NCBI GenBank assembly: GCA_030426085.1
Contig: JAUHYW010000025.1
Coordinates: forward strand, 1 to 64,000
Reading direction: 5' to 3'
Length of the DNA: 64,000 nucleotides
Source: a bacterium
Lineage (GTDB): Bacteria > Myxococcota_A > Bradymonadia > UBA7976 > UBA1532
Below the pieces are notes generated by a model. It was not told the DNA's origin. It saw only the letters and a list, made by a program, of their open reading frames with translations, and ran no database searches. A program made the position numbers and the translations under genes. This document shows positions 27,793 to 38,775 of the stretch, piece after piece. How positions within the stretch are numbered: the first letter of the stretch is position 1; each line of letters starts with the position of its first letter.

Positions 27793-29604
27793 ATGCGCGC
27801 TGCCTTCGTGCTCGCCCTCTCCCTCGCGCTCGCCGCCTGCGGCGAGGAGACCCCCGAACCGATCGACGCCGCCGACGCGGCGCCCGAGCCAGCGCCCGAT
27901 CCGGAGCCGCAGCCCGACCCCGAGCCGCCGGCCTGCGACGGCCTCGACGCCGACGGCGACGGGATCTGCGACCGGGAGCGGGCCGACTGGAGCCGCGCCG
28001 CCACCGTCGAGCCGGGGACCCACCGGGGCGACATCTATCGGCTCGGCGAGGCCCTGCCCGCCGTCGAGGCCGAGGGGCTGGCCCACGCCCAGGTGTGGCC
28101 GGTGACCGTCTCGGGCATCCTGATGCCCTACGCCGCGATGAACCGGGCGCTCGACCCCGAGGCCGACGACCCCCGGCTGCTCACCCTGCGGGGCAACGCC
28201 GCCGAGACGGTGGGCTTCGAGACGACCGAGGGCTTCTACCGCTGGCTGGGGCTGCCGGCCTACGACCCGCCGGGCGAGGGCCCGTTCGCCGGGCTGCCCT
28301 ACGCCGCTCCCCGCCCGCCGGGCGCGCCCGACGACGCGCCGATGGGGGTCGGGGTCATCGCCACCGACAGCGTCGAGGCGCTGACCTTCTCGTGCAGCGC
28401 GTGCCACGCCGGGCGGCTGCTGGGGCGCACGGTGATGGGGCTGGCCAACCGGCAGGCGCGGGCCAACAGCTTCTTCCACATCGCCAAGAGCCTGCTGCCG
28501 GTCATCTCGAGCCCGCTGCTGCTCGATCTGATCGAGGTGACCGACGACGAGATGCGGCTGATCGAGCGCACGCTGGGCCACGTCGCGAACGTCGACGCCC
28601 GCCGCCCGGTGGCGCTGGGGCTGGACACCTCGCTGGCCCAGGTGGCGCTGAGCCTCGCCCGGCGGGGCGACGACCCCTACGCCGAGCCCAGCGTCGACCG
28701 GCAGCTCCGGCCGCTGCCCAACGGGCTGGACGAGGCCGTCGCCGACAGCAAGCCGATGCCGTGGTGGACCCTCAAGTACAAGACCCGCTGGCTGGCCGAC
28801 GGCTCGATCGTCTCGGGCAACCCGGTGCTGACCAACTTCCTGTGGAACGAGATCGGGCGGGGCACCGACCTGCGGGAGCTGGAGGCCTGGATGCAGGCCA
28901 ATCCCCGGGCCGTCGACGCCCTGACGGTGGCCGTCTTCGCCAGCCGGCCGCCGCGGTGGACCGACTACTTCGACGCCGACTCCATCGACCTCGACGCCGC
29001 CCGCCGGGGTCAGGCCGCCTTCGCGACGCGCTGCGCCCGGTGCCACGGGACCTACGAGAAGGGGTGGGACGCCGACGAGCCGCTCGATCCCGTCGAGCGG
29101 CTGCGCACGACCCGGGTGGTCTATCACCCGACGACGCCGGTGTTCGACGTGGGCACCGACCCCGGCCGGGCGCAGGGTATGGCCCACTTCGCCGATCGGC
29201 TCAACGCGCTGGCGATCTCGCAGTGGATGCAGACGACCGTCGAGGTCCAGTCGGGCTACGTGCCGCCGCCGCTGGACGGCGTCTGGGCCCGGTATCCATA
29301 CCTGCACAACAACAGCGTGCCGACGCTGTGCGACCTGCTGACGCCGCCCGGCGACCGGCCGACGGAGTTCTACCAGGGGCCGTCGGAGGACGCCGAGACC
29401 GACTTCGACGCCGACTGCGTGGGCTACCCGGTCGGCGAGGCGGTGCCCCCGGCGTGGCTCGAGATCGAGGACGGGCTGATCGACACGACGCAGCCCGGGC
29501 TGTCGAACCAGGGGCACGACGAGATGCTCGACGGGCGCGACGGCAACCCCCCGATCTCCGCCGAGGAGCGGGCGGATCTGGTGATGTTCCTCAAGACGCT
29601 GTGA
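27793..29604 (+). CDS. Dihaem c-type cytochrome lipoprotein (cytochrome c peroxidase/RoxA-like), copy 1
   Basis: A 603-residue exported protein. MRAAFVLALSLALAACGEE is a lipoprotein signal, followed by an acidic Pro/Asp-rich linker and DADGDGICDRERADW, a calcium-type loop. Two CxxCH haem sites are visible: CSACHAGRLLG near residue 200 and CARCHGTYEKGWD near 415. The C-terminal block YPYLHNNSVPTLCDLLTPPG resembles cytochrome c peroxidase, MauG and rubber-oxygenase RoxA proteins, which share a dihaem core. The protein probably sits in the outer membrane or periplasm and does redox chemistry on peroxide or an organic substrate. It is followed within eight bases by a paralogue. Which substrate is used cannot be told. 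Confidence 0.87.
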   Translation: MRAAFVLALSLALAACGEETPEPIDAADAAPEPAPDPEPQPDPEPPACDGLDADGDGICDRERADWSRAATVEPGTHRGDIYRLGEALPAVEAEGLAHAQVWPVTVSGILMPYAAMNRALDPEADDPRLLTLRGNAAETVGFETTEGFYRWLGLPAYDPPGEGPFAGLPYAAPRPPGAPDDAPMGVGVIATDSVEALTFSCSACHAGRLLGRTVMGLANRQARANSFFHIAKSLLPVISSPLLLDLIEVTDDEMRLIERTLGHVANVDARRPVALGLDTSLAQVALSLARRGDDPYAEPSVDRQLRPLPNGLDEAVADSKPMPWWTLKYKTRWLADGSIVSGNPVLTNFLWNEIGRGTDLRELEAWMQANPRAVDALTVAVFASRPPRWTDYFDADSIDLDAARRGQAAFATRCARCHGTYEKGWDADEPLDPVERLRTTRVVYHPTTPVFDVGTDPGRAQGMAHFADRLNALAISQWMQTTVEVQSGYVPPPLDGVWARYPYLHNNSVPTLCDLLTPPGDRPTEFYQGPSEDAETDFDADCVGYPVGEAVPPAWLEIEDGLIDTTQPGLSNQGHDEMLDGRDGNPPISAEERADLVMFLKTL

Positions 29605-29612
29605 GGGGGCCC

Positions 29613-31367
29613 ATGCTGCGCCGACTGCTCGCGCCTCTGCTCCTGCTCGCCTGCGGCCCGGTGGACGAGCAGCCCGACGCCGCCGACGGCGCCCCGCCCG
29701 ACGCTGCGCCCGCCGCCCGCTGCGCTTCGGGCTTCGATCTGGACGACGACGGCGTCTGCGACCGGGCGCAGATCGACTGGCGGGCGCCCATCCCGCCGGG
29801 GGCCGATCGGCGGGACATCTTCGGCCTCGGCCCGCGCCTGCCGGACGTCGTCGAGCGGGGGCTGGGCCACCTCGACACCTGGCCGGTGGCCGAGACCGGC
29901 GCGCTGTTGCCCTGGCGGCTGACCCGGCTCGCGCTCGACCCCGACGTCGAGGACCCGCTGCTGCGCCGGCTGCGGGCGGGCGCGCTGCCCACGTTCGGCT
30001 TCGATACGCTGCCCGGCTTCTTCGAGTGGCTGGGGCTGCCCCCGCGGCCCGCCGGGTGGACCGCCTCGCCGACGCCCGCCGACCACGATGACCCGTGGCC
30101 CCTCGGCGCCGGGCTGGTCGACACCCCCGCCGGCCCGGCGCTGTCGTTCGGCTGCACCACCTGCCACGCCGGGCGCCTGCTCGGCCGCACGATCGTCGGC
30201 CTGCCCAACCGGGCCAGCCGGGCCAACGCCTTCTTCGACGTGAGCCGGCAGCTCCTGCCGCTGCTGTCGTCGGACTTCGTGCTCGACACGCTCGGCGCCG
30301 ACGACGCCGAGCGCGATCTGGCCCTGCGCAGCGCCGCGGCGGCGCTCAGCGTGGGCAGCCGCCGCCCGCAGGCGCTGGGGCTCGACAGCTCGGTGGCCCA
30401 CATGAGCCTCAGCCTCGCCCGCCGGGGCGCCGATCCGTGGGCCGAGCCCGATCCGGGCCGGCAGCTCGCGCCCGAAGAGACCCCGCTCGACCGGCTGGTG
30501 GCCGACAGCAAGCCCCGCCCGTGGTGGACCTCGAAGTACAAGACCCGGTGGACCGCCGACGGCTCGAACCAGGGCGATCCGATCGTGATCAACCTGCTGT
30601 GGAACGAGATCGGGCGGGGCACCGACCTGCGGGCGTTCGGGGCGTGGCTCGACGCCAACGGGGACGTGGTCGATGCGATGACCGCAGCCGTCTTCGCCAA
30701 CCCGGCGCCCCGGTGGACCGACTTCTTCCCGCCCGAGAGCGTCGACCTCGCCGCCGCCCGCCGGGGGCAGGCCGAGTTCGCCCGGCGGTGCGTGACGTGC
30801 CACGGGACCTACGAGAAGGCGTGGGACGACGCCGGCGCCGAGGCCCTCGACCCCGCCGCGCGGCTGCGCACGACCCGGGTGCTGTATCACCCCGACACCC
30901 CGGTGCTCGACGTGGGCACCGACCCCCAGCGGGCGCAGGCCATCGAGACGTTCGCCCGGCAGGTGGGGCGGCTGGCGCTGCTCGAGCGGCACGGCATCAC
31001 CACCGCGCCCACCGGGGGCTACGTGCCGCCGCCGCTGGAGGGCATCTGGGCCCGCTACCCCTACCTGCACAACAGCAGCGTGCCGACGCTGTGCGCGCTG
31101 CTGTCCCCGCCCGAGGAGCGCCCGGTCGAGTTCCGCCAGGGGCCGTCGGAGGATCCGGCGACCGACTTCGACGCCGACTGCGTGGGCTATCCCATCGGCG
31201 ACGCCATCCCCGAGGCGTGGCACGCCATCGAAGACAGCCTGGTCGACACGACCACCCCCGGCTTGTCGAACGGGGGGCACCACACCATGCTGGACGGCAG
31301 CGACGGCAACCCGCCGCTCGACGCCGACACCCGGCGCGATCTGGTGATGTTCCTCAAGACGCTGTGA
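29613..31367 (+). CDS. Dihaem c-type cytochrome lipoprotein (cytochrome c peroxidase/RoxA-like), copy 2
   Basis: A 584-residue paralogue of the preceding gene, co-linear over its length. The lipobox is in LLAPLLLLACGPV. Haem motifs are CTTCHAGRLLG and CVTCHGTYEKAWD. YPYLHNSSVPTLCALLSPP matches the same C-terminal block as copy 1, and the last residues, DLVMFLKTL, are the same in both genes. The start at ATG 29613 lies eight bases after the previous stop with a GAGGGGG ribosome site. An open frame running back to 28095 is an artefact of reading through copy 1. The two products may form a heterodimer, or one may be a specialised duplicate. The stop region itself is duplicated. Confidence 0.87.
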   Translation: MLRRLLAPLLLLACGPVDEQPDAADGAPPDAAPAARCASGFDLDDDGVCDRAQIDWRAPIPPGADRRDIFGLGPRLPDVVERGLGHLDTWPVAETGALLPWRLTRLALDPDVEDPLLRRLRAGALPTFGFDTLPGFFEWLGLPPRPAGWTASPTPADHDDPWPLGAGLVDTPAGPALSFGCTTCHAGRLLGRTIVGLPNRASRANAFFDVSRQLLPLLSSDFVLDTLGADDAERDLALRSAAAALSVGSRRPQALGLDSSVAHMSLSLARRGADPWAEPDPGRQLAPEETPLDRLVADSKPRPWWTSKYKTRWTADGSNQGDPIVINLLWNEIGRGTDLRAFGAWLDANGDVVDAMTAAVFANPAPRWTDFFPPESVDLAAARRGQAEFARRCVTCHGTYEKAWDDAGAEALDPAARLRTTRVLYHPDTPVLDVGTDPQRAQAIETFARQVGRLALLERHGITTAPTGGYVPPPLEGIWARYPYLHNSSVPTLCALLSPPEERPVEFRQGPSEDPATDFDADCVGYPIGDAIPEAWHAIEDSLVDTTTPGLSNGGHHTMLDGSDGNPPLDADTRRDLVMFLKTL

Positions 31368-31388: not shown

Positions 31389-31907
31389 ATGAGCCCCGAC
31401 ATCCGCATCGAGTCCTTCGACCACCGGCTCGCGCCGCCCCACGCGCCGCTGATCCGCCGCGTCGAAGCGGCCCGGTCCGCCGCCGAGCGGGCGCTGCCCA
31501 ACGGCCTGCAACGCCCGCCCGCGGCGGTCGCGGGCATCCTGGTGGAGCGCTCGAAGTGGCTGGCGCAGTTCGCCCGCGTCGGCGAGGGCCCCGACGCGCC
31601 GGTCGTCGGCTTCAAGCTGGGCTACGCCGAGCGCTCGACCCGCTTCTACAGCTGGCTGGGCGGGGTCGACCCCGACTTCCGCCGGCGGGGCATCGCCCGC
31701 CAGCTCATGGTCGACCAGCACCGGTGGTGCACCGCTGAGGGCTTCGAGCTGATCGAGACGTCGACCACCAACCGCTTCCGGGCGATGCTGCTGCTCAACC
31801 TGCGGATGGGGTTCGACGTGGTCGGCACCCGCGCGGGCGAGCACGCCCTGAACATCCTGCTGGCCAAGTCGCTCAAGCCGCGCCCCGGGATCACGGGCGT
31901 CCTGTGA
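31389..31907 (+). CDS. GNAT-family N-acetyltransferase
   Basis: A 172-residue acyl-CoA-dependent acetyltransferase. The acetyl-CoA pyrophosphate loop reads DPDFRRRGIARQLM (the R/Q-x-x-G-x-G/A form), preceded by the strand STRFYSWLGGV and followed by EGFELIETSTTNRFRAMLLLN, a typical GNAT motif B. It lies 21 bases after the second cytochrome gene, so it is probably in the same transcript. Its 3' end overlaps the convergent CHAT gene by 17 bases. The acceptor could be a small molecule or a protein terminus; nothing here decides it. Confidence 0.85.
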   Translation: MSPDIRIESFDHRLAPPHAPLIRRVEAARSAAERALPNGLQRPPAAVAGILVERSKWLAQFARVGEGPDAPVVGFKLGYAERSTRFYSWLGGVDPDFRRRGIARQLMVDQHRWCTAEGFELIETSTTNRFRAMLLLNLRMGFDVVGTRAGEHALNILLAKSLKPRPGITGVL

Positions 31908-34515
31908 GCCGCCAGCCGCGCCAGCCGGGGTCGCCGGCGGCGAGGCTGTCGGCCACCGCCCGGCGGAAGGCGGACCCCGGGGCCTCGGCGCCGCCCGCCG
32001 CGTAGAAGCGCTGCACGAACCGGCGGGCGGCGGCGTCGTCGAGCACGGTGTCGGCCGCCAGCACCGCCCGGGCGCCGAGCGCGACGAGCACCTCGGGCAG
32101 CGCCCACGCCTCCTCTCGGCTCAGCGCGCCCCGGCGGGCGGTCTCGCACCCGCTGAGCACCGCCACCCGGGGCGCGGCCCGGGCCAGCAGGACCTCGGCC
32201 GCCGTCAGCCGGACCCCGTCGGCCAGCTTCAGGTGCGCGCCCCACGGCCCGTGGGCGCCGGGGGCGCCGTGCCCCGCGAAGTGCAGCCAGCGGGCGTCGT
32301 CCATCGCAGCCAGCGCCGCCGACGCCGTCGCCGCCCCGCCGAGCAGCAGCCGGGCCCCGGACGCGGCGACGGCCCGCCCCTCGACCCGGGCGTGGGGCAG
32401 ATCGCCGGTGGGATCGGCGATGACGACCGGCGGGCGGGCGCCCGCTCGGGGCGGGGTCGCGAGCAGCCGGGCGGCGGGCAGCCAGGTCACCGGCAGGCGC
32501 GCGGTCCACGGGCGACCGTCGGGGGCCGGCGGCAGATCCCGGGCCGCGGCGAGGCCGCCGTCGACGATGATCAGCCCCGCGGCCCCGGTCAGCCGGTCGC
32601 GCCACGGCCCGAGCGGATCGGCCGGGTCGACCGGGTGGACCTCGAGCCTCCCGGTCGACAGCCAGAAGCCGCGCCGCGCGCCGTCGAACGCGACCAGGAC
32701 CTCACCCGGGGCCAGCGCCGCCCGCACGTCGTCGAGGGTCACCCCGATCTCCGGCCCCCCGTCGCCCAGCGCCGCCTCGGCCGCGTCGAAGAGCCGCCGC
32801 AGCCGCCGCCGCCCCTCCGCGCGCCCGGCGCGCCAGCGGGCCTGCTCTTCGGGGGGCAGCCCGTCGCCGGCGAAGCGCTCCCCGTCGAACGCGGCCCGAG
32901 CCCGGCGCCACGCCGACAGCGCCTCGGCCCACCGGGCGGCGGCGGCGTCGTCCAGCGCGTCCAGCCGGGCCCGGGCGGTCAGCTCGCTCAGCACCCGGCC
33001 CCGGGCCTCGTCGGCGACGGCGAACGCCGCCCCGGGATCGCCCTCGGCCAGCCGCAGCTCGACCAGCGCGTCCACCAGCGCCTGCCGATCGGCGTAGAAG
33101 GCCGAGCGCCCCTGCGCCGCGCCGACCCCGGCCGCCTGCTCGCGGATGAGGTCGAGCCCCGCCCGCCACGCCGCGCCGGCCCCCTCGAGATCGCCCAGCA
33201 TCCGCCGGGCCCGGCCCTCCAGCAGCGCCCGCCGCCAGCGCAGGTGCGCCGCCCCGGCCGCGATCGTTTCGGCCGCAGCCGCCGCCCGATCGAGCGCGGC
33301 CCGGGGGTCGCCCTCGGCCAGCGCCAGCTCGATCTCCAGGAGCGCCACGAACGCCGCCGAGAACCCGCCCGCGTCGGGATCGGCGGCCCGCGCTCGGGCC
33401 AGCGCCGACCGGGCCCCGTCGAGGTCGTCGGCCAGCAGCGCCGCCCGGGCGCGGTTGGCGGCGGCGTTGGCCCGGCGGGGGCCCGGGGGCAGCTCGATGG
33501 CGGCGAAGTGGCGCACCAGCCCCGGGTAGTCGGGGGACAGCGCGCCGGCCTGCATCGCCCGCAGGCGGATCCAGCCCGCGTCGACGGCGAAGTGTGGCCG
33601 CAGCGCCGCGCCCCGGGGCCCGAGGCGGTCCAGCGTGGCCCGGCTGCGGTCGAGGGCGGCCAGCGCGGCGGCGTGCTCGCCCCGGTCTTGCAGCAGGCTG
33701 GCCCGGGCCAGCGCGAAGCCCACCGCGTCCACATCGCGCCCGGCGGCCTCGACCCCGGCGATGGCGTGGCTCAAGTGCTCGGCGGCCGCCCGGAAGCGAC
33801 CGATCTGCTGATCGACGAGCCCCTGGTAGTAGCGGGCGAGGGCCACGCCCGCCGGCAGCCCCGCCGCCGCGGCCGCGACCCGGGCCTCGCGGGCCAGGGC
33901 GGCGGCCTCGACGTAGCGCTGGGCCCACAGCAGGCGATGAGCCCCGAGGCGCAGCGCGCGGGCGGCGTCGACCGGGCGGTGGGCGGCGGCGGCGGCGGCG
34001 GCGCGGGAGGCGGCGGCGGCCTCGGCGGGCGGGGCGACGCGGGCCGCTTCGAGGGCGAACCGCCACCCCTCGCCCGGCGGCGGATCGGCGAGCAGGCGCC
34101 GGGCCTCGTCGACGCGGCCGGCGCGGCGGGCGGCCTCGATCGCCCGGAGCGCGGGCGGAGGCGCGGGCGCGAACCGGGCCGGGATCCGGGCCACCGGGTG
34201 GCCGGCGCGCACGATCCGGATCTCGCCGGCCACGCCGGGCGGCCCGTCGGCGCAGACCCGGACGAGGCCTCGGGCATCGGGCGCCGGCAGGGGCGTCGGC
34301 GGGCGGCCATCGGGGCAGCGGACCGCGAGCCCGGCGGCGGCGGGCGGCGCCCGCAGCGTGGCCCCCGCGGGCCCGATCTCGGGGCGCCAGAACCCCCGGT
34401 GCAGCGCGAGGCCGGCGGGGTCGATCAGCGCGACGGACAGGGGCGGCGGCGGCTCGGCGCAGGCCAGCAGCGCCCACCCGATCAGCCCCAGCGCGGCGGG
34501 CGACGGGCGGCTCAC
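31891..34515 (-). CDS. TPR-like helical repeat and CHAT protease
   Basis: An 874-residue protein starting at GTG 34515, whose start overlaps the S8 gene stop (GTGA). A hydrophobic N-terminus with LLAC suggests a lipoprotein or membrane anchor (LIGWALLACAEPP). Then comes a beta-rich segment of about 100 residues. Residues about 130-520 are Ala-rich helical repeats of TPR type (for example ARYYQGLVDQQIGRFRAAAE). The C-terminal CHAT domain, a caspase-like clan CD protease, has the histidine in HFAGHG (H749) and the cysteine in VLSGCETA (C790), so it should be active. CHAT proteases often act in regulated cleavage, including separase-like, CRISPR type III-E (Csx29) and gasdermin-activating systems. 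Here it is the last gene of a sigma/anti-sigma operon. Confidence 0.9.
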   Translation of the reverse strand: MSRPSPAALGLIGWALLACAEPPPPLSVALIDPAGLALHRGFWRPEIGPAGATLRAPPAAAGLAVRCPDGRPPTPLPAPDARGLVRVCADGPPGVAGEIRIVRAGHPVARIPARFAPAPPPALRAIEAARRAGRVDEARRLLADPPPGEGWRFALEAARVAPPAEAAAASRAAAAAAAHRPVDAARALRLGAHRLLWAQRYVEAAALAREARVAAAAAGLPAGVALARYYQGLVDQQIGRFRAAAEHLSHAIAGVEAAGRDVDAVGFALARASLLQDRGEHAAALAALDRSRATLDRLGPRGAALRPHFAVDAGWIRLRAMQAGALSPDYPGLVRHFAAIELPPGPRRANAAANRARAALLADDLDGARSALARARAADPDAGGFSAAFVALLEIELALAEGDPRAALDRAAAAAETIAAGAAHLRWRRALLEGRARRMLGDLEGAGAAWRAGLDLIREQAAGVGAAQGRSAFYADRQALVDALVELRLAEGDPGAAFAVADEARGRVLSELTARARLDALDDAAAARWAEALSAWRRARAAFDGERFAGDGLPPEEQARWRAGRAEGRRRLRRLFDAAEAALGDGGPEIGVTLDDVRAALAPGEVLVAFDGARRGFWLSTGRLEVHPVDPADPLGPWRDRLTGAAGLIIVDGGLAAARDLPPAPDGRPWTARLPVTWLPAARLLATPPRAGARPPVVIADPTGDLPHARVEGRAVAASGARLLLGGAATASAALAAMDDARWLHFAGHGAPGAHGPWGAHLKLADGVRLTAAEVLLARAAPRVAVLSGCETARRGALSREEAWALPEVLVALGARAVLAADTVLDDAAARRFVQRFYAAGGAEAPGSAFRRAVADSLAAGDPGWRGWRLTGRP

Positions 34516-37022
34516 CGCACGACGACCCTCAGCGGCGAGACGTCCCGCACGATGGTCTTGCCGTCCGGCTGCTGCACGTACAGCAGCAGCCGGGCCGACA
34601 GCTTGCTCCACAGCACCGGCGCCCCGGGCACGCTCAGCTTGAGGTCGGCGAGGGTGAAGCCGGCCCCCGGCTTCCAGTAGTCGCGGGGCACGTAGTCGGT
34701 CAGGTTGACGTACACCCGCTCGCCGGTCTCGGTCTGCACCTCGAGGATGGGGCCGACGATCAGCGTGTCGGCCGGCGCCGCGGGGTTGAGCGCGATGTCG
34801 AGCGTCGCCTGCGAGGGGTCGCCCGCCGGCACCCGCTCGATCGTGAAGCGGCAGTCGGGGCACCACGGATCCTGGGGCTGGGGGCCGAGGCCGCCCACCG
34901 AGTAGCGGTCGGGGGCCAGCCCCTCGAACGGGCAGGCGCCGGCGGCGCACGCCCGGCTCAGGTCGGGCGCCGCCGGATCGGCCGGGCGCAGCGGGCCGCA
35001 CTCGGCGTCGTTCCAATCGGGCGTCGGCGGCGGATCGGCGTCGCAGTCCTCGAGCGGCTCCAGCTCGACCGCGCAGGCAGCGAGCGCAGCCTCGCACGCG
35101 GCGAGGGTGTCACTGACCGCCAGCGGGCGATCGTCGTCCTCGGCGTCGAGGCAGTCGAGCACCGCCGGCAAGGCCGCGCAGTCCGCCAGCCGGGCCAGCC
35201 CCGGCCAGCCGATCCGGCGGTAGTTCAGGTCGCCGAAGACCCGGGGCCCGGCGCAGACCGGGGTCGCGGTGGCCCGCAGCGCCAGCTCGATCTGGCGGGG
35301 CGAGATCGCCGCCGGGTCGACGTCCGCCCGCCCGGCCAGCGCGCCCAGCCAGCGCGCGACGAGCCCGCTGGTGAGCGCCGCCGCCACCGACGTGCCGCTG
35401 AGCGTCGCCGGCAGCCGGACCCCATCTTGCGCGGCCGCCGGGGGCGGGGTGTCGCCGTCCACGCACACCGAGCGGGCCCGACGGCGGGCCGGCCCGTCGA
35501 CCACGACGTGCTGCCCGGGGGCCATCAGCGTGGCGTAGGTGAAGGGCGTCGTCAGCCCCGCCGCCCGGTCGCGGGCGTCGTGGGCCGCCACCGGCAGCGC
35601 CAGCCGGCGGCCGTCGAGCGGATCCTCACCGTCGGCGCAGCTCCGCTCGAGGCCCCACTGCGCCGGGTAGAACAGCGGCGCCGGCTGGGCGCGGATCTCG
35701 GCCCGCCAGTCAGCGGCGCAGCGGTCGCGGGCGTCCTCGTCGCTCGGCACCCGGGCGTCGAGCCACACCGCGTCGGCCCGGTTGCCGCCGGCGGCGATCA
35801 CCATCACCCCGGCCTCGGCCGCCCGCATCAGCGCCCAGCGGACCGGGGCCCCGGTGGGATCCTCGGTCGTCTCGCACTGCTGCCCGTCGCGCCCGTCGAG
35901 GATGGGGCCCACCAACCCCGTGCGCCGGTTCAGCTCGGGGGGCCAGCCCAGGCTGAGGTTGATGATCCGGGGGGCGTCGGCCGGCAGCGCGCTCAGCGCA
36001 CGGGCGATGGACCGGGCCACGTCGCCCACCGGGCCGGTGTGGTCGGGGGTCAAGGCGGGGAAGACCGCGATCTGCGCGCCGGGCGCCACCTGCCGGACGA
36101 GGGCCGCCATCGCCGTGCCGTGCAGCGCCGGCGCGGGCCCCGGGCGCACCGTCACCCCCAGCGCCGCGGCCACCGCCGGGTCGGGCGCGGTGTCGACGAG
36201 CGCGACGTGAGCCGCCGCCCGGGGCGGGTCGGCGTCATCGGGCAGGCCCAGGTGATCGAGGTGCCACCGGCGCATCGCCTCGGTGGGCGCCGCCGGGGAT
36301 TGGGCCACCGCGTCGCACGCCCGGGCCACGTAGGCGTCGTCCAGCGCGCCGTGCGCGGCGACCGCCGCCCGCAGCGCCGAGACGATGTCGCATTGCGCGG
36401 CGTCGCGGGCGGTGAGCCGGGCCCCGTCGACCTCGAACCAGAAGCGGTGGAACCGGCCGGCGCCCGCGGGTCCGACGTCAGCCGCGTCGAGCAGCGCTTC
36501 GACTCCGACCTCGACCCGATCGGCGCCGTCGCACGGCCCGCCGGGGGCGCAGAACCACGGCGCGAAGTCCCGCCGGGCCCGCGCGCGCAGCGCAGCGGCG
36601 ACCGGCGCCGGGTCGACCAGCGGCGCGGGGCGCTCGGGGGCGGCGTCGACCACATACAGATCACCCCGGCACGGCCGGCCGATGGCGTCGTACAGGATCG
36701 CGTCGTCGGGCAGCCCCACCGGCGAGGGCTCGGCGGGCAGCGGCGCGTCCAGCGGCGTGGTCGGGGTGGGCCCGGCGAGCGTGTCGGGCATGCTGTCGGG
36801 GGCCGCGTCGGGCATGCCATCGGGGGCCGCGTCGGGCATGCCATCGGGCATGGCATCCGGCGCGCGGTCGGGCAGGGCGTCCGGCGAGCCGTGCGGCATG
36901 CCATCGAGCATGGCATCCGGCGTGGCGTGCCCCGAGACCGCGTCGTCGCAGCCCGACACACCCGGGCAGAGCGCGCCCAGGCAGACCAGCCCGAGCGCCG
37001 CGCGCAGTGACATCCGGCTCAT
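34512..37022 (-). CDS. Lipoprotein with S8 (subtilisin-like) serine protease domain
   Basis: An 836-residue exported protein. The signal peptide has lipobox VSGC. Next comes a run of Met-Pro-Asp repeats (about residues 30-85) forming a flexible stalk. The subtilisin triad is intact by motif: D277 (VALVDTAPD), H301 (ALHGTAMAAL), S545 (LSGTSVAAAL), with the oxyanion-region AAGGNRAD. Beyond about residue 600 there are paired cysteines and a C-terminal beta domain (TLIVGPILEVQTETGERVYV). The start at ATG 37022 has GGAGG five bases upstream and overlaps the anti-sigma stop (ATGA). Its own stop overlaps the CHAT start. It may be the site-1-like protease that cleaves the anti-sigma factor from outside. 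Confidence 0.9.
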   Translation of the reverse strand: MSRMSLRAALGLVCLGALCPGVSGCDDAVSGHATPDAMLDGMPHGSPDALPDRAPDAMPDGMPDAAPDGMPDAAPDSMPDTLAGPTPTTPLDAPLPAEPSPVGLPDDAILYDAIGRPCRGDLYVVDAAPERPAPLVDPAPVAAALRARARRDFAPWFCAPGGPCDGADRVEVGVEALLDAADVGPAGAGRFHRFWFEVDGARLTARDAAQCDIVSALRAAVAAHGALDDAYVARACDAVAQSPAAPTEAMRRWHLDHLGLPDDADPPRAAAHVALVDTAPDPAVAAALGVTVRPGPAPALHGTAMAALVRQVAPGAQIAVFPALTPDHTGPVGDVARSIARALSALPADAPRIINLSLGWPPELNRRTGLVGPILDGRDGQQCETTEDPTGAPVRWALMRAAEAGVMVIAAGGNRADAVWLDARVPSDEDARDRCAADWRAEIRAQPAPLFYPAQWGLERSCADGEDPLDGRRLALPVAAHDARDRAAGLTTPFTYATLMAPGQHVVVDGPARRRARSVCVDGDTPPPAAAQDGVRLPATLSGTSVAAALTSGLVARWLGALAGRADVDPAAISPRQIELALRATATPVCAGPRVFGDLNYRRIGWPGLARLADCAALPAVLDCLDAEDDDRPLAVSDTLAACEAALAACAVELEPLEDCDADPPPTPDWNDAECGPLRPADPAAPDLSRACAAGACPFEGLAPDRYSVGGLGPQPQDPWCPDCRFTIERVPAGDPSQATLDIALNPAAPADTLIVGPILEVQTETGERVYVNLTDYVPRDYWKPGAGFTLADLKLSVPGAPVLWSKLSARLLLYVQQPDGKTIVRDVSPLRVVVR

Positions 37023-37780
37023 GGCGCCCTCCGATAGTGCACGTCGAGCCGCACCCAGCGCACGCCGTCGGCGCCGAGCGCGTCGGCCGGGGACTGCCCG
37101 GCGAGATCGGCCAACGGCGCGGGCCCCTCGGCCAGCGCGAGGTACACCGCGCACCGGGCGGGGGGCGCCCCGAACAGCGCGCGGGCCGGCGCGACCAGGG
37201 TCCAGACGCCGCCGTCTCCCGGCGTCAGGCGGGCGTCGGGCACGGCCGTCAGCGGCCCGCCGTCCCGGGAGACGAAGGCCCGCGCCGCCGGGGCCGGCCC
37301 GTCCAGCGCGGCCTCGGGGCGCACCGTCAACCGCAGGGTGCCCGCCGGCACGAAGACCACCGGCCCGGCGGGCGCCGGCTGCGCCTCGGCCCGAGACGCC
37401 TGCACCCCGCCCCGCACCGCGCCGATGGTGTAGGCCGGCGGCGGCGGGGGCCCGGCCCGCAGGACCGCCAGCGCGATCCCGGCGGCCAGCGCCAGCCCGG
37501 CCCCGACCCAGGCCGCCGCGCGCCGCCGACCGGACGGCGCGGCGCTGGCCATGCGGTCGAGCAGCGCGTCGCTCACCGGCGCCGACAGGTCGCCCAGCGT
37601 CGCCCGATCGGCCGCCGAGCGGGCCAGCACCCGCTCGACCTCGGCCGCCGCCTCGGGATCGAGCCGGCCGGCTCGCCACGCGTGCAGGTCGCCGGGGTCG
37701 AGCTCGGGCTCTCCAGGGCTCACCGCCGGGGCCTCGGCCCGCAGCAGCGCGTCGATCGCCTCGTCGCTGCGCTCGCTCAT
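37019..37780 (-). CDS. Single-pass anti-sigma factor
   Basis: A 253-residue protein. The N-terminal cytoplasmic part (GDLHAWRAGRLDPEAAAEVE) is the helical anti-sigma form found next to ECF sigma genes. It lacks a zinc-binding HxxxCxxC. A transmembrane helix follows (about residues 101-120, AAAWVGAGLALAAGIALAVL). The exterior part is a beta-rich domain of about 130 residues (PVVFVPAGTLRLTVRPEA, ALDGPAPAARAFVSRDGG). It overlaps the sigma gene by four bases and the S8 gene by four bases. Its role is probably to hold the sigma factor at the membrane until an external signal triggers cleavage. The exterior sensor domain is not recognised. Confidence 0.78.
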   Translation of the reverse strand: MSERSDEAIDALLRAEAPAVSPGEPELDPGDLHAWRAGRLDPEAAAEVERVLARSAADRATLGDLSAPVSDALLDRMASAAPSGRRRAAAWVGAGLALAAGIALAVLRAGPPPPPAYTIGAVRGGVQASRAEAQPAPAGPVVFVPAGTLRLTVRPEAALDGPAPAARAFVSRDGGPLTAVPDARLTPGDGGVWTLVAPARALFGAPPARCAVYLALAEGPAPLADLAGQSPADALGADGVRWVRLDVHYRRAP

Positions 37781-38409
37781 GCCGCCGCCATCCAGGCCCG
37801 GGTCAAGCCCCGGATCTTGTGCTGCCAGTTGTAGACCACCTGCTTGCGCACGCCCATGCGATCGGCCGCCTCGTCCACCGACAGCCCGTCGGTGTAGACC
37901 AGCGCCAGCACCGCCTGCCCCCGCTCCGAGAGCTGCCCCTCGAGGTGGCGCCACAGCGCGCCGTGCAGGTCGCGGCCGGCGGCGATCTGCTCCGGATCGG
38001 CGATCGCGTCGGCGACGTGCTGCGCCTCGGTCAGCTCGCCCTCGCCGCCCGGGGCCCGGCGCTTGGCGGCGGCGTGCTTCTCGGCCATCGTCGCGACGAG
38101 CTGGCCGGCGACCATGCTGACGTAGCCTTCGAAGGTCTTGCCCCGCTCGGGGTCGTAGCCCCGCAGCCGGCGCCCGTCGTCGTCGAGCAGGCGGCACCAG
38201 ACCTCGTGGATCAGATCGTCGGTGTCGAGCCCGCCCGGGCCCCGCCGCCCGCGGGTCATGCGCAACACCCGGGCCCGGATGACCGGGGCCACCCGCTCGG
38301 CGAGGCGGCGGGCGGCGCGGCGGTCGCCGGCCAGCGCGCGGCGGATGGTGGCGGGCACGTCGTCCGGGCGCCGCAGACCCAGGACCGCCCCGAGCACAGC
38401 GAACGGCAC
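37777..38409 (-). CDS. ECF-like sigma70-family factor
   Basis: A 210-residue factor with region 2 (IRARVLRMTRG, DTDDLIHEVWCRLL, GKTFEGYVSMVAGQL) and region 4 (LSERGQAVLALVYTDGLSVD, EAADRMGVRKQVVYNWQHKI) separated by a linker. The starting GTG at 38409 has GGAGGGAGGAG upstream. The region-4 helix uses QVVYNWQHKIRG rather than the usual ARVRLHRAR, a variant seen in ECF factors from myxobacteria. It is upstream of, and overlaps, its anti-sigma gene. It should control its own operon and others when freed. Confidence 0.88.
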   Translation of the reverse strand: MPFAVLGAVLGLRRPDDVPATIRRALAGDRRAARRLAERVAPVIRARVLRMTRGRRGPGGLDTDDLIHEVWCRLLDDDGRRLRGYDPERGKTFEGYVSMVAGQLVATMAEKHAAAKRRAPGGEGELTEAQHVADAIADPEQIAAGRDLHGALWRHLEGQLSERGQAVLALVYTDGLSVDEAADRMGVRKQVVYNWQHKIRGLTRAWMAAA

Positions 38410-38775
38410 GGGCTCCTCCCTCCGCGTCGAACGTGGCACAGCCCCCCGGGCGGCGCAACGGCCCGCGCGACGGCGCGCGTCGGGGTCGTGGGGCTCGGCG
38501 AGCTCGATCCGGGCGGGGCGTACACGGGGGGTGTGTCGTGCGTGATGCATGGCATGGCTCCGGTGGGTGTTCGCCCGGAGGTACCGGGATCGGGTCGGCG
38601 CCTTTTTCCCGGGGGCCGGTTTTCCGTCGCCGCGAGAAAAAACACCCCGCCGGAAAAAACGCGCGGCCGGCTTCGGGTACATCCCCTCGCATCGCATCGA
38701 GACGACGCATCCACCGGACCCGAGTGGTGCCATCGATGGCATCCGCCGGTCCCCTCGTCCCATTGGAGAGACACC
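38410..38775. promoter_or_regulatory. Divergent regulatory region between the sigma operon and the beta-propeller gene
   Basis: A 366-base gene-free stretch. It holds two GAAAAAAC octamers 17 bases apart (38636-38643 and 38653-38660). Two further A- or T-rich tracts lie at 38602-38626. A perfect 14-base palindrome TGCCATCGATGGCA is at 38728-38741. GCATCC(A/G)CCGG occurs twice, 32 bases or three helical turns apart, at 38707-38717 and 38739-38749. A-tracts are rare in this window. The set looks like an operator/enhancer array, but no clear ECF -35/-10 pair can be fixed by eye. Confidence 0.55.

Follow-up and report, generated by a model that had tools for sequence, protein, structure and literature searches.

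The closest described relatives of the system reported here all link an extracytoplasmic function (ECF) sigma factor to proteases. In Myxococcus xanthus, the ECF sigma factor DdvS is held by DdvA, a single-pass anti-sigma factor with a periplasmic TPR-CHAT region, and a 2024 Science Advances study of DdvA reportedly proposed that the sigma factor is released by proteolysis. DdvS turns active upon inactivation of DdvA, and the inactivating signal was not known in 2015 (PMC4374960). In Actinobacteria, ECF54 sigma factors have subtilase and CHAT-domain genes in their context, and proteolytic control without an anti-sigma factor was proposed for them (PMC8999054). Craspase, also named CASP, of type III-E CRISPR (Csx29, Csx30, CASP-sigma) co-encodes a TPR-CHAT protease, a sigma inhibitor and an ECF sigma factor, and in the DegS-RseA-RseP-RpoE pathway a periplasmic first cut releases the ECF sigma factor. 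In this study, we analysed a stretch of 64,000 nucleotides (the window) from a bacterium of the class Bradymonadia (contig JAUHYW010000025.1), in which genes for an ECF sigma factor, an anti-sigma factor, an S8 protease and a TPR-CHAT protease lie next to each other. We propose that these four genes form a self-contained envelope-to-transcription switch, in which the CHAT protease, together with S8, would be the first to cut the anti-sigma factor, on the periplasmic side. We assign this reading a probability of roughly 0.55. The association of ECF sigma factors with subtilases and CHAT proteins is already noticed in the literature (ECF54); our literature search found no published account of a four-gene module that contains an anti-sigma factor, just the ECF54 remark and DdvA.

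Results

Recurrence of the four-gene set

The locus comprises the following genes:
37777..38409, minus strand: ECF-type sigma factor, 210 amino acids, GTG start; Sigma70_ECF (Pfam, 2e-7), TIGR02937
37019..37780, minus strand: single-pass anti-sigma factor, 253 amino acids; cytoplasmic helical anti-sigma domain (ASD), transmembrane (TM) helix, periplasmic Ig-like domain
34512..37022, minus strand: S8 (subtilase) protease, predicted lipoprotein, 836 amino acids; lipobox Cys25; D277, H301, S545; Peptidase_S8 (Pfam, 2.5e-10)
31891..34515, minus strand: TPR-CHAT protease, predicted lipoprotein, 874 amino acids; lipobox LLAC, Cys19; H749, C790

All four open reading frames translated stop-free on the minus strand, and an independent codon-usage gene call returned the identical four genes, which overlap by exactly 4 nucleotides at each step. 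The caller was a simple local one, trained in its first round on these four genes and in later rounds on the full set of long genes from the loci; some loci are truncated because their genomes are drafts. The genes, coordinates, 4-nucleotide overlaps and intact catalytic motifs reported in a first-pass annotation of the window were thus borne out by translation, gene call and alignments.

The genome of the window (10.1 Mb) harbors 23 CHAT domains. When the window CHAT was searched against the proteins of 13 family genomes, up to 13 homologues per genome were obtained, and a search with the sigma factor gave a matching set. Within 4.5 kb of the 43 family CHAT homologues, a sigma gene was present in 33 cases, an anti-sigma gene in 32 and an S8 gene in 27, with all three near the CHAT gene in 22; from the density of ECF genes, a neighbouring sigma gene would be expected in about 10% of cases (binomial ~7e-25). 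Overall, 37 loci carry all four genes, and they are spread over several families of the phylum and Acidobacteriota. The anti-sigma profile matched 131 of 379 genomes of the phylum, many of them weakly, and 40 loci drawn from its strongest matches mostly showed sigma, anti-sigma and CHAT genes, often with S8 as well. A close-match scan of genome contigs with CHAT alone gave no match, and the sigma profile was used in its place. Named carriers are Sandaracinus sp. and Plesiocystis pacifica; in Plesiocystis, three anti-sigma and three CHAT matches share the same three contigs. Strain SIR-1 of P. pacifica carries all four genes (L172, from the genome that also contains L197). Metagenome-assembled genomes of Acidobacteriota (Holophagales and others) show the order sigma, anti-sigma, CHAT, S8. 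The proposal that the four genes act as one system is upheld.

Gene maps of the homologous sets revealed shuffled order and orientation, frequent gaps and sometimes opposite strands. The commonest arrangement is an overlap or close linkage of the sigma gene with the following anti-sigma gene, and the unbroken overlap chain of the window is atypical. Thus, the gene set recurs in other Myxococcota, whereas its order and strand vary, and conservation does not extend to the overlaps. For the same reason the argument that translational coupling fixes the ratios of the four proteins fails.

A natural fusion and two co-diverging pairs

In three genomes of one distant Myxococcota genus, a single protein of 1051-1111 amino acids consists of a full anti-sigma factor (E ~1e-35) followed by TPR-CHAT (E ~1e-140). 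Its gene and the end of the sigma gene share 4 nucleotides, and the S8 gene then follows. The structure model of the fusion (predicted local distance difference test, pLDDT, 85; predicted template modelling score, pTM, 0.75) contains the ASD, the TM helix, the Ig-like domain, a second beta domain, TPR and CHAT, and its top fold matches in the PDB were, in this order, the anti-sigma factor DdvA, separase and Csx29. These matches came from profiles and folds alone, as direct phmmer searches of the PDB, with either CHAT or the fusion as query, gave no match, DdvA included. Because the fusion joins both proteins with a DdvA-like fold, CHAT appears to be functionally tied to the anti-sigma factor, outside the inner membrane.

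Distances between loci (PARTNERSHIPS) correlate highest for CHAT and S8 (0.75), followed by sigma and anti-sigma (0.57). Among paralogues within single genomes the correlations were 0.88 and 0.68 for CHAT-S8, and 0.74 and 0.59 for sigma-anti-sigma. Cross-pair correlations were weak in the genome of the window (-0.05 to 0.27) and moderate in the sister genome (0.36 to 0.50). These values point to two matched pairs, one of proteases (CHAT-S8) and one forming the switch (sigma-anti-sigma).

The two proteases

The TPR-CHAT protein has an N-terminal beta domain, a TPR array and a separase/caspase-like CHAT domain. Two further features of the proteases are relevant:
31987..32529, minus strand: CHAT domain proper, residues 663-843; PF12770 (Pfam, 7e-20)
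34851-34862, minus strand: C-terminal S8 motif GPQPxxxxCPxC, with C721 and C724

All 42 aligned family members and all 35 distant homologues retain the His-Cys dyad in the CHAT fold (clan CD), and the Asp-His-Ser triad in the subtilase fold (S8) is complete in 29/29 and 23/23, respectively. The S8 cysteine pair is also kept in all aligned S8 members, distant ones included. Both proteases are thus predicted to be active, as proposed from their motifs, with catalytic residues that do not vary among the aligned homologues. Where the start of a CHAT or S8 protein is well placed, the protein nearly always opens with a signal peptide, and most carry a lipobox; export was judged from sequence patterns, not with SignalP. 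The first-pass annotation had recognised S8 as a lipoprotein and missed that CHAT is also a predicted one. As both carry signal peptides or lipoboxes, proteolysis by CHAT and S8 is predicted to be entirely periplasmic. A domain shared between the anti-sigma C-terminus and the CHAT N-terminus was considered and rejected (hhalign E 0.008, probability 5%).

The anti-sigma factor and a candidate cut site

A Pfam search with the window anti-sigma gave no match, and its ASD has no zinc-binding cysteines. Within the ASD, the profile of the anti-sigma family matched the anti-sigma factor RslA (3hug_B, E 0.003). The model of the window protein (pLDDT 87) shows the ASD helices, one TM helix and the Ig-like periplasmic domain, with weak fold matches. 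The pairing of an ECF sigma factor with an adjacent membrane anti-sigma (ASD plus TM helix) is kept in about 40 loci. Two features of the anti-sigma factor are relevant:
37460..37522, minus strand: TM helix, residues about 85/87-107
37391..37393, minus strand: codon of Arg130, a near-invariant residue and candidate protease site

Among 89 aligned anti-sigma sequences, which include a few genes fetched twice, this position is Arg in 84 and Lys in 2. Of the charged residues immediately outside the membrane, Arg130 alone is strongly conserved, and no strongly conserved acidic partner for it was seen in the domain. It is located at the loop between the first periplasmic strands, where loop length is variable and model confidence low. 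Separase and several further enzymes of clan CD usually have arginine at P1. We propose Arg130 as candidate cut site of the anti-sigma factor.

The sigma factor

The sigma factor, whose ortholog in the sister species is 79% identical, is preceded by a strong ribosome-binding site and begins with an unusual leader:
38413-38423: Shine-Dalgarno sequence, strong, GGAGGGAGGAG
38374..38406, minus strand: short hydrophobic N-terminal leader, residues 2-12, PFAVLGAVLGL

A strongly hydrophobic sigma N-terminus (Kyte-Doolittle mean over 12 residues at about 2 or higher) was found in about 20 relatives, nearly all from the family of the window (including L052, L053, L077, L079, L101, L102 and L103), and several of the starts are fixed by a 4-nucleotide overlap. 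By comparison, the 30 other sigma-70-family genes of the window genome reach at most 1.52. Possibly, the leader makes this a membrane-tethered sigma factor or a pro-sigma.

Locus boundaries and variant loci

A plus-strand GNAT acetyltransferase gene shares 17 nucleotides with the 3' end of the CHAT gene, and a divergent gene for an NHL/WD40-like protein lies 366 nucleotides upstream of the sigma gene. The four-gene unit is therefore bounded on both sides. Elsewhere in the window, positions 27793-31367 encode a tandem pair of lipoproteins that have RoxA-like cytochrome c domains.

CHAT homologues were also observed in other contexts. Two sigma-less ones (L090:5902-10553 and L106:5694-10291) are preceded by genes for a small lipoprotein and a second, caspase-like (C14-type) lipoprotein; these genes overlap or lie close together and represent a different periplasmic protease pair. 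Two others (L091:5686-8846 and L107:5339-8484) lie beside a gene for a 145-amino-acid Rrf2-like regulator instead of sigma/anti-sigma genes. At L109:5413-11539 and L111:263-6721, a CHAT protein of about 1330 amino acids without signal peptide, possibly a cytoplasmic variant, is encoded beside genes for a TM protein and for an ECF sigma factor.

Discussion

In the proposed mechanism, the anti-sigma factor would span the inner membrane and keep the ECF sigma factor held inside, with the lipoproteins TPR-CHAT and S8 as a matched protease pair on the periplasmic side. The TPR and beta domains of CHAT might sense a signal, possibly via S8, and thereby activate the protease. CHAT would then cut the anti-sigma factor in its periplasmic part, with the loop at Arg130 as the most likely site, after which an RseP-type protease would cut within the membrane, Clp-type proteases would finish the degradation and the sigma factor would be freed. 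RseP-family homologues are present in the genome of the window. We infer which protease cuts and where, how the steps follow one another, and what the signal and the target genes are. Staged proteolysis, as suggested in the first-pass annotation, stands as the best model, with CHAT favoured by the fusions and by DdvA, and with the cleavage itself a prediction of that model.

Several observations weigh against this switch. A nearby sigma gene is missing for ten of the 43 CHAT homologues in the family, so that the expected linkage of CHAT to sigma genes holds for the other 33 only. Conversely, sigma/anti-sigma pairs of the same family exist without CHAT or S8 (e.g. L077, L099, L079). S8 is absent within 4.5 kb in 16/43 CHAT loci, some of them at contig ends, and therefore cannot be essential everywhere. 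The export of CHAT and S8 rests on sequence patterns, and Arg130 could be structural.

The protease-free pairs would also suit a scheme in which the proteases are outputs: an ordinary sigma/anti-sigma pair, activated otherwise, drives two secreted proteases that serve predation, nutrition or the turnover of the envelope. Some S8 genes form a transcription unit of their own or lie on the opposite strand, and an ECF-promoter-like GGAAA...TGTCAGA precedes several S8 genes. A GGAAA-type box followed by TGTCAGATC was found upstream of S8 in L093, L096, L097, L066, L051 and L069, and GTCAGA occurs upstream of 8/52 S8 genes compared to 21/1160 others (p ~1e-5, for a pattern chosen after looking). Promoter footprints sought in front of orthologous gene pairs yielded only a weak lead. 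However, the CHAT-anti-sigma fusion and the DdvA precedent put CHAT on the sensing side, and known TPR-CHAT folds are regulatory proteases, which makes the output scheme unlikely. Somewhat less likely again is a division of labour in which CHAT is the signal-activated cutter of the anti-sigma factor and S8 just its activator, processing enzyme or feedback brake. This would agree with the strongest co-divergence of all pairs being that of CHAT and S8, with the fusion of the anti-sigma factor to CHAT instead of S8, and with some complete sigma/anti-sigma/CHAT sets without S8 nearby, but S8 subtilases could themselves be site-1 proteases.

A role in defence or cell death, raised in the first-pass annotation, appears improbable. 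As for DdvS/DdvA, the module would detect phage or envelope attack and switch on defence genes, or the proteases would kill the cell. DdvS does control a CBASS-CRISPR island in M. xanthus (PMC12288465), and CHAT proteases work in immunity (Craspase, PMC10028731). The neighbours of the module gave no support: PADLOC found no match for the four proteins and three tested neighbours, and among 92 flanking genes (PADLOC, Pfam) no family had more than three members and neither a recurring defence gene type nor any recurring partner beyond the four genes was seen. Moreover, both species of the genus have many copies in common, in contrast to defence islands, which are labile, and the proteases are predicted to face the periplasm.

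Returning to the envelope-to-transcription switch, the module looks like a widespread, largely undescribed route from an outside signal to gene expression. More tentatively, S8 and CHAT might form a relay of mutually activating lipoproteins that cut their own anti-sigma factor at the conserved arginine, with about ten copies per genome as insulated sensors and, in one clade, a membrane-touching sigma leader; that this amounts to an undescribed class of envelope signalling is possible, though doubtful. The candidate cut site, the named strain Plesiocystis pacifica SIR-1 and the natural fusion make the release of such anti-sigma factors directly testable.

Comparison with known systems

Compared to the DegS-RseA-RseP-RpoE pathway, the module has a dedicated co-encoded CHAT/S8 pair instead of the shared DegS, and the locus has no DegS gene. 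ECF54, compared by its description in PMC8999054, has no anti-sigma factor and has a carboxypeptidase, whereas here a cognate anti-sigma gene usually adjoins the sigma gene, as it does in the window. Csx29 is structurally similar to the fusion model, and the first-pass comparison with Craspase holds for the likeness of TPR-CHAT, inhibitor and sigma factor. However, Csx29 is cytoplasmic and RNA-activated, while the CHAT protein here is predicted to be exported and is paired with S8, so that Craspase is a less apt comparison than DdvA/DdvS. Neither Cas7-11 nor another CRISPR gene was found at the locus, the tested window proteins had no defence-family match, and the arrangement of an RNA-guided Cas7-11 effector with a cytoplasmic CHAT is thus not the one encoded.

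DdvA/DdvS is the nearest known system. The CHAT domain of DdvA retains His and Cys at the aligned positions, DdvA is the best fold match of the fusion form, and a periplasmic TPR-CHAT is likewise predicted here from signal peptide or lipobox and from the fusion topology. In contrast to DdvA, anti-sigma factor and CHAT are usually separate genes and CHAT is a predicted lipoprotein; ASD, TM helix and TPR-CHAT occur in a single polypeptide just in the fusions (L147, L149, L150), not in the window. In addition, the anti-sigma factor has an extra Ig-like domain, that of the window has no zinc-ligand cysteines, and a co-diverging S8 is added. In summary, the periplasmic TPR-CHAT anti-sigma factor DdvA belongs to a much broader pattern that connects sigma factors with both a caspase/separase-like protease and a subtilase; large myxobacterial genomes each hold many copies, and copies occur in another phylum as well.

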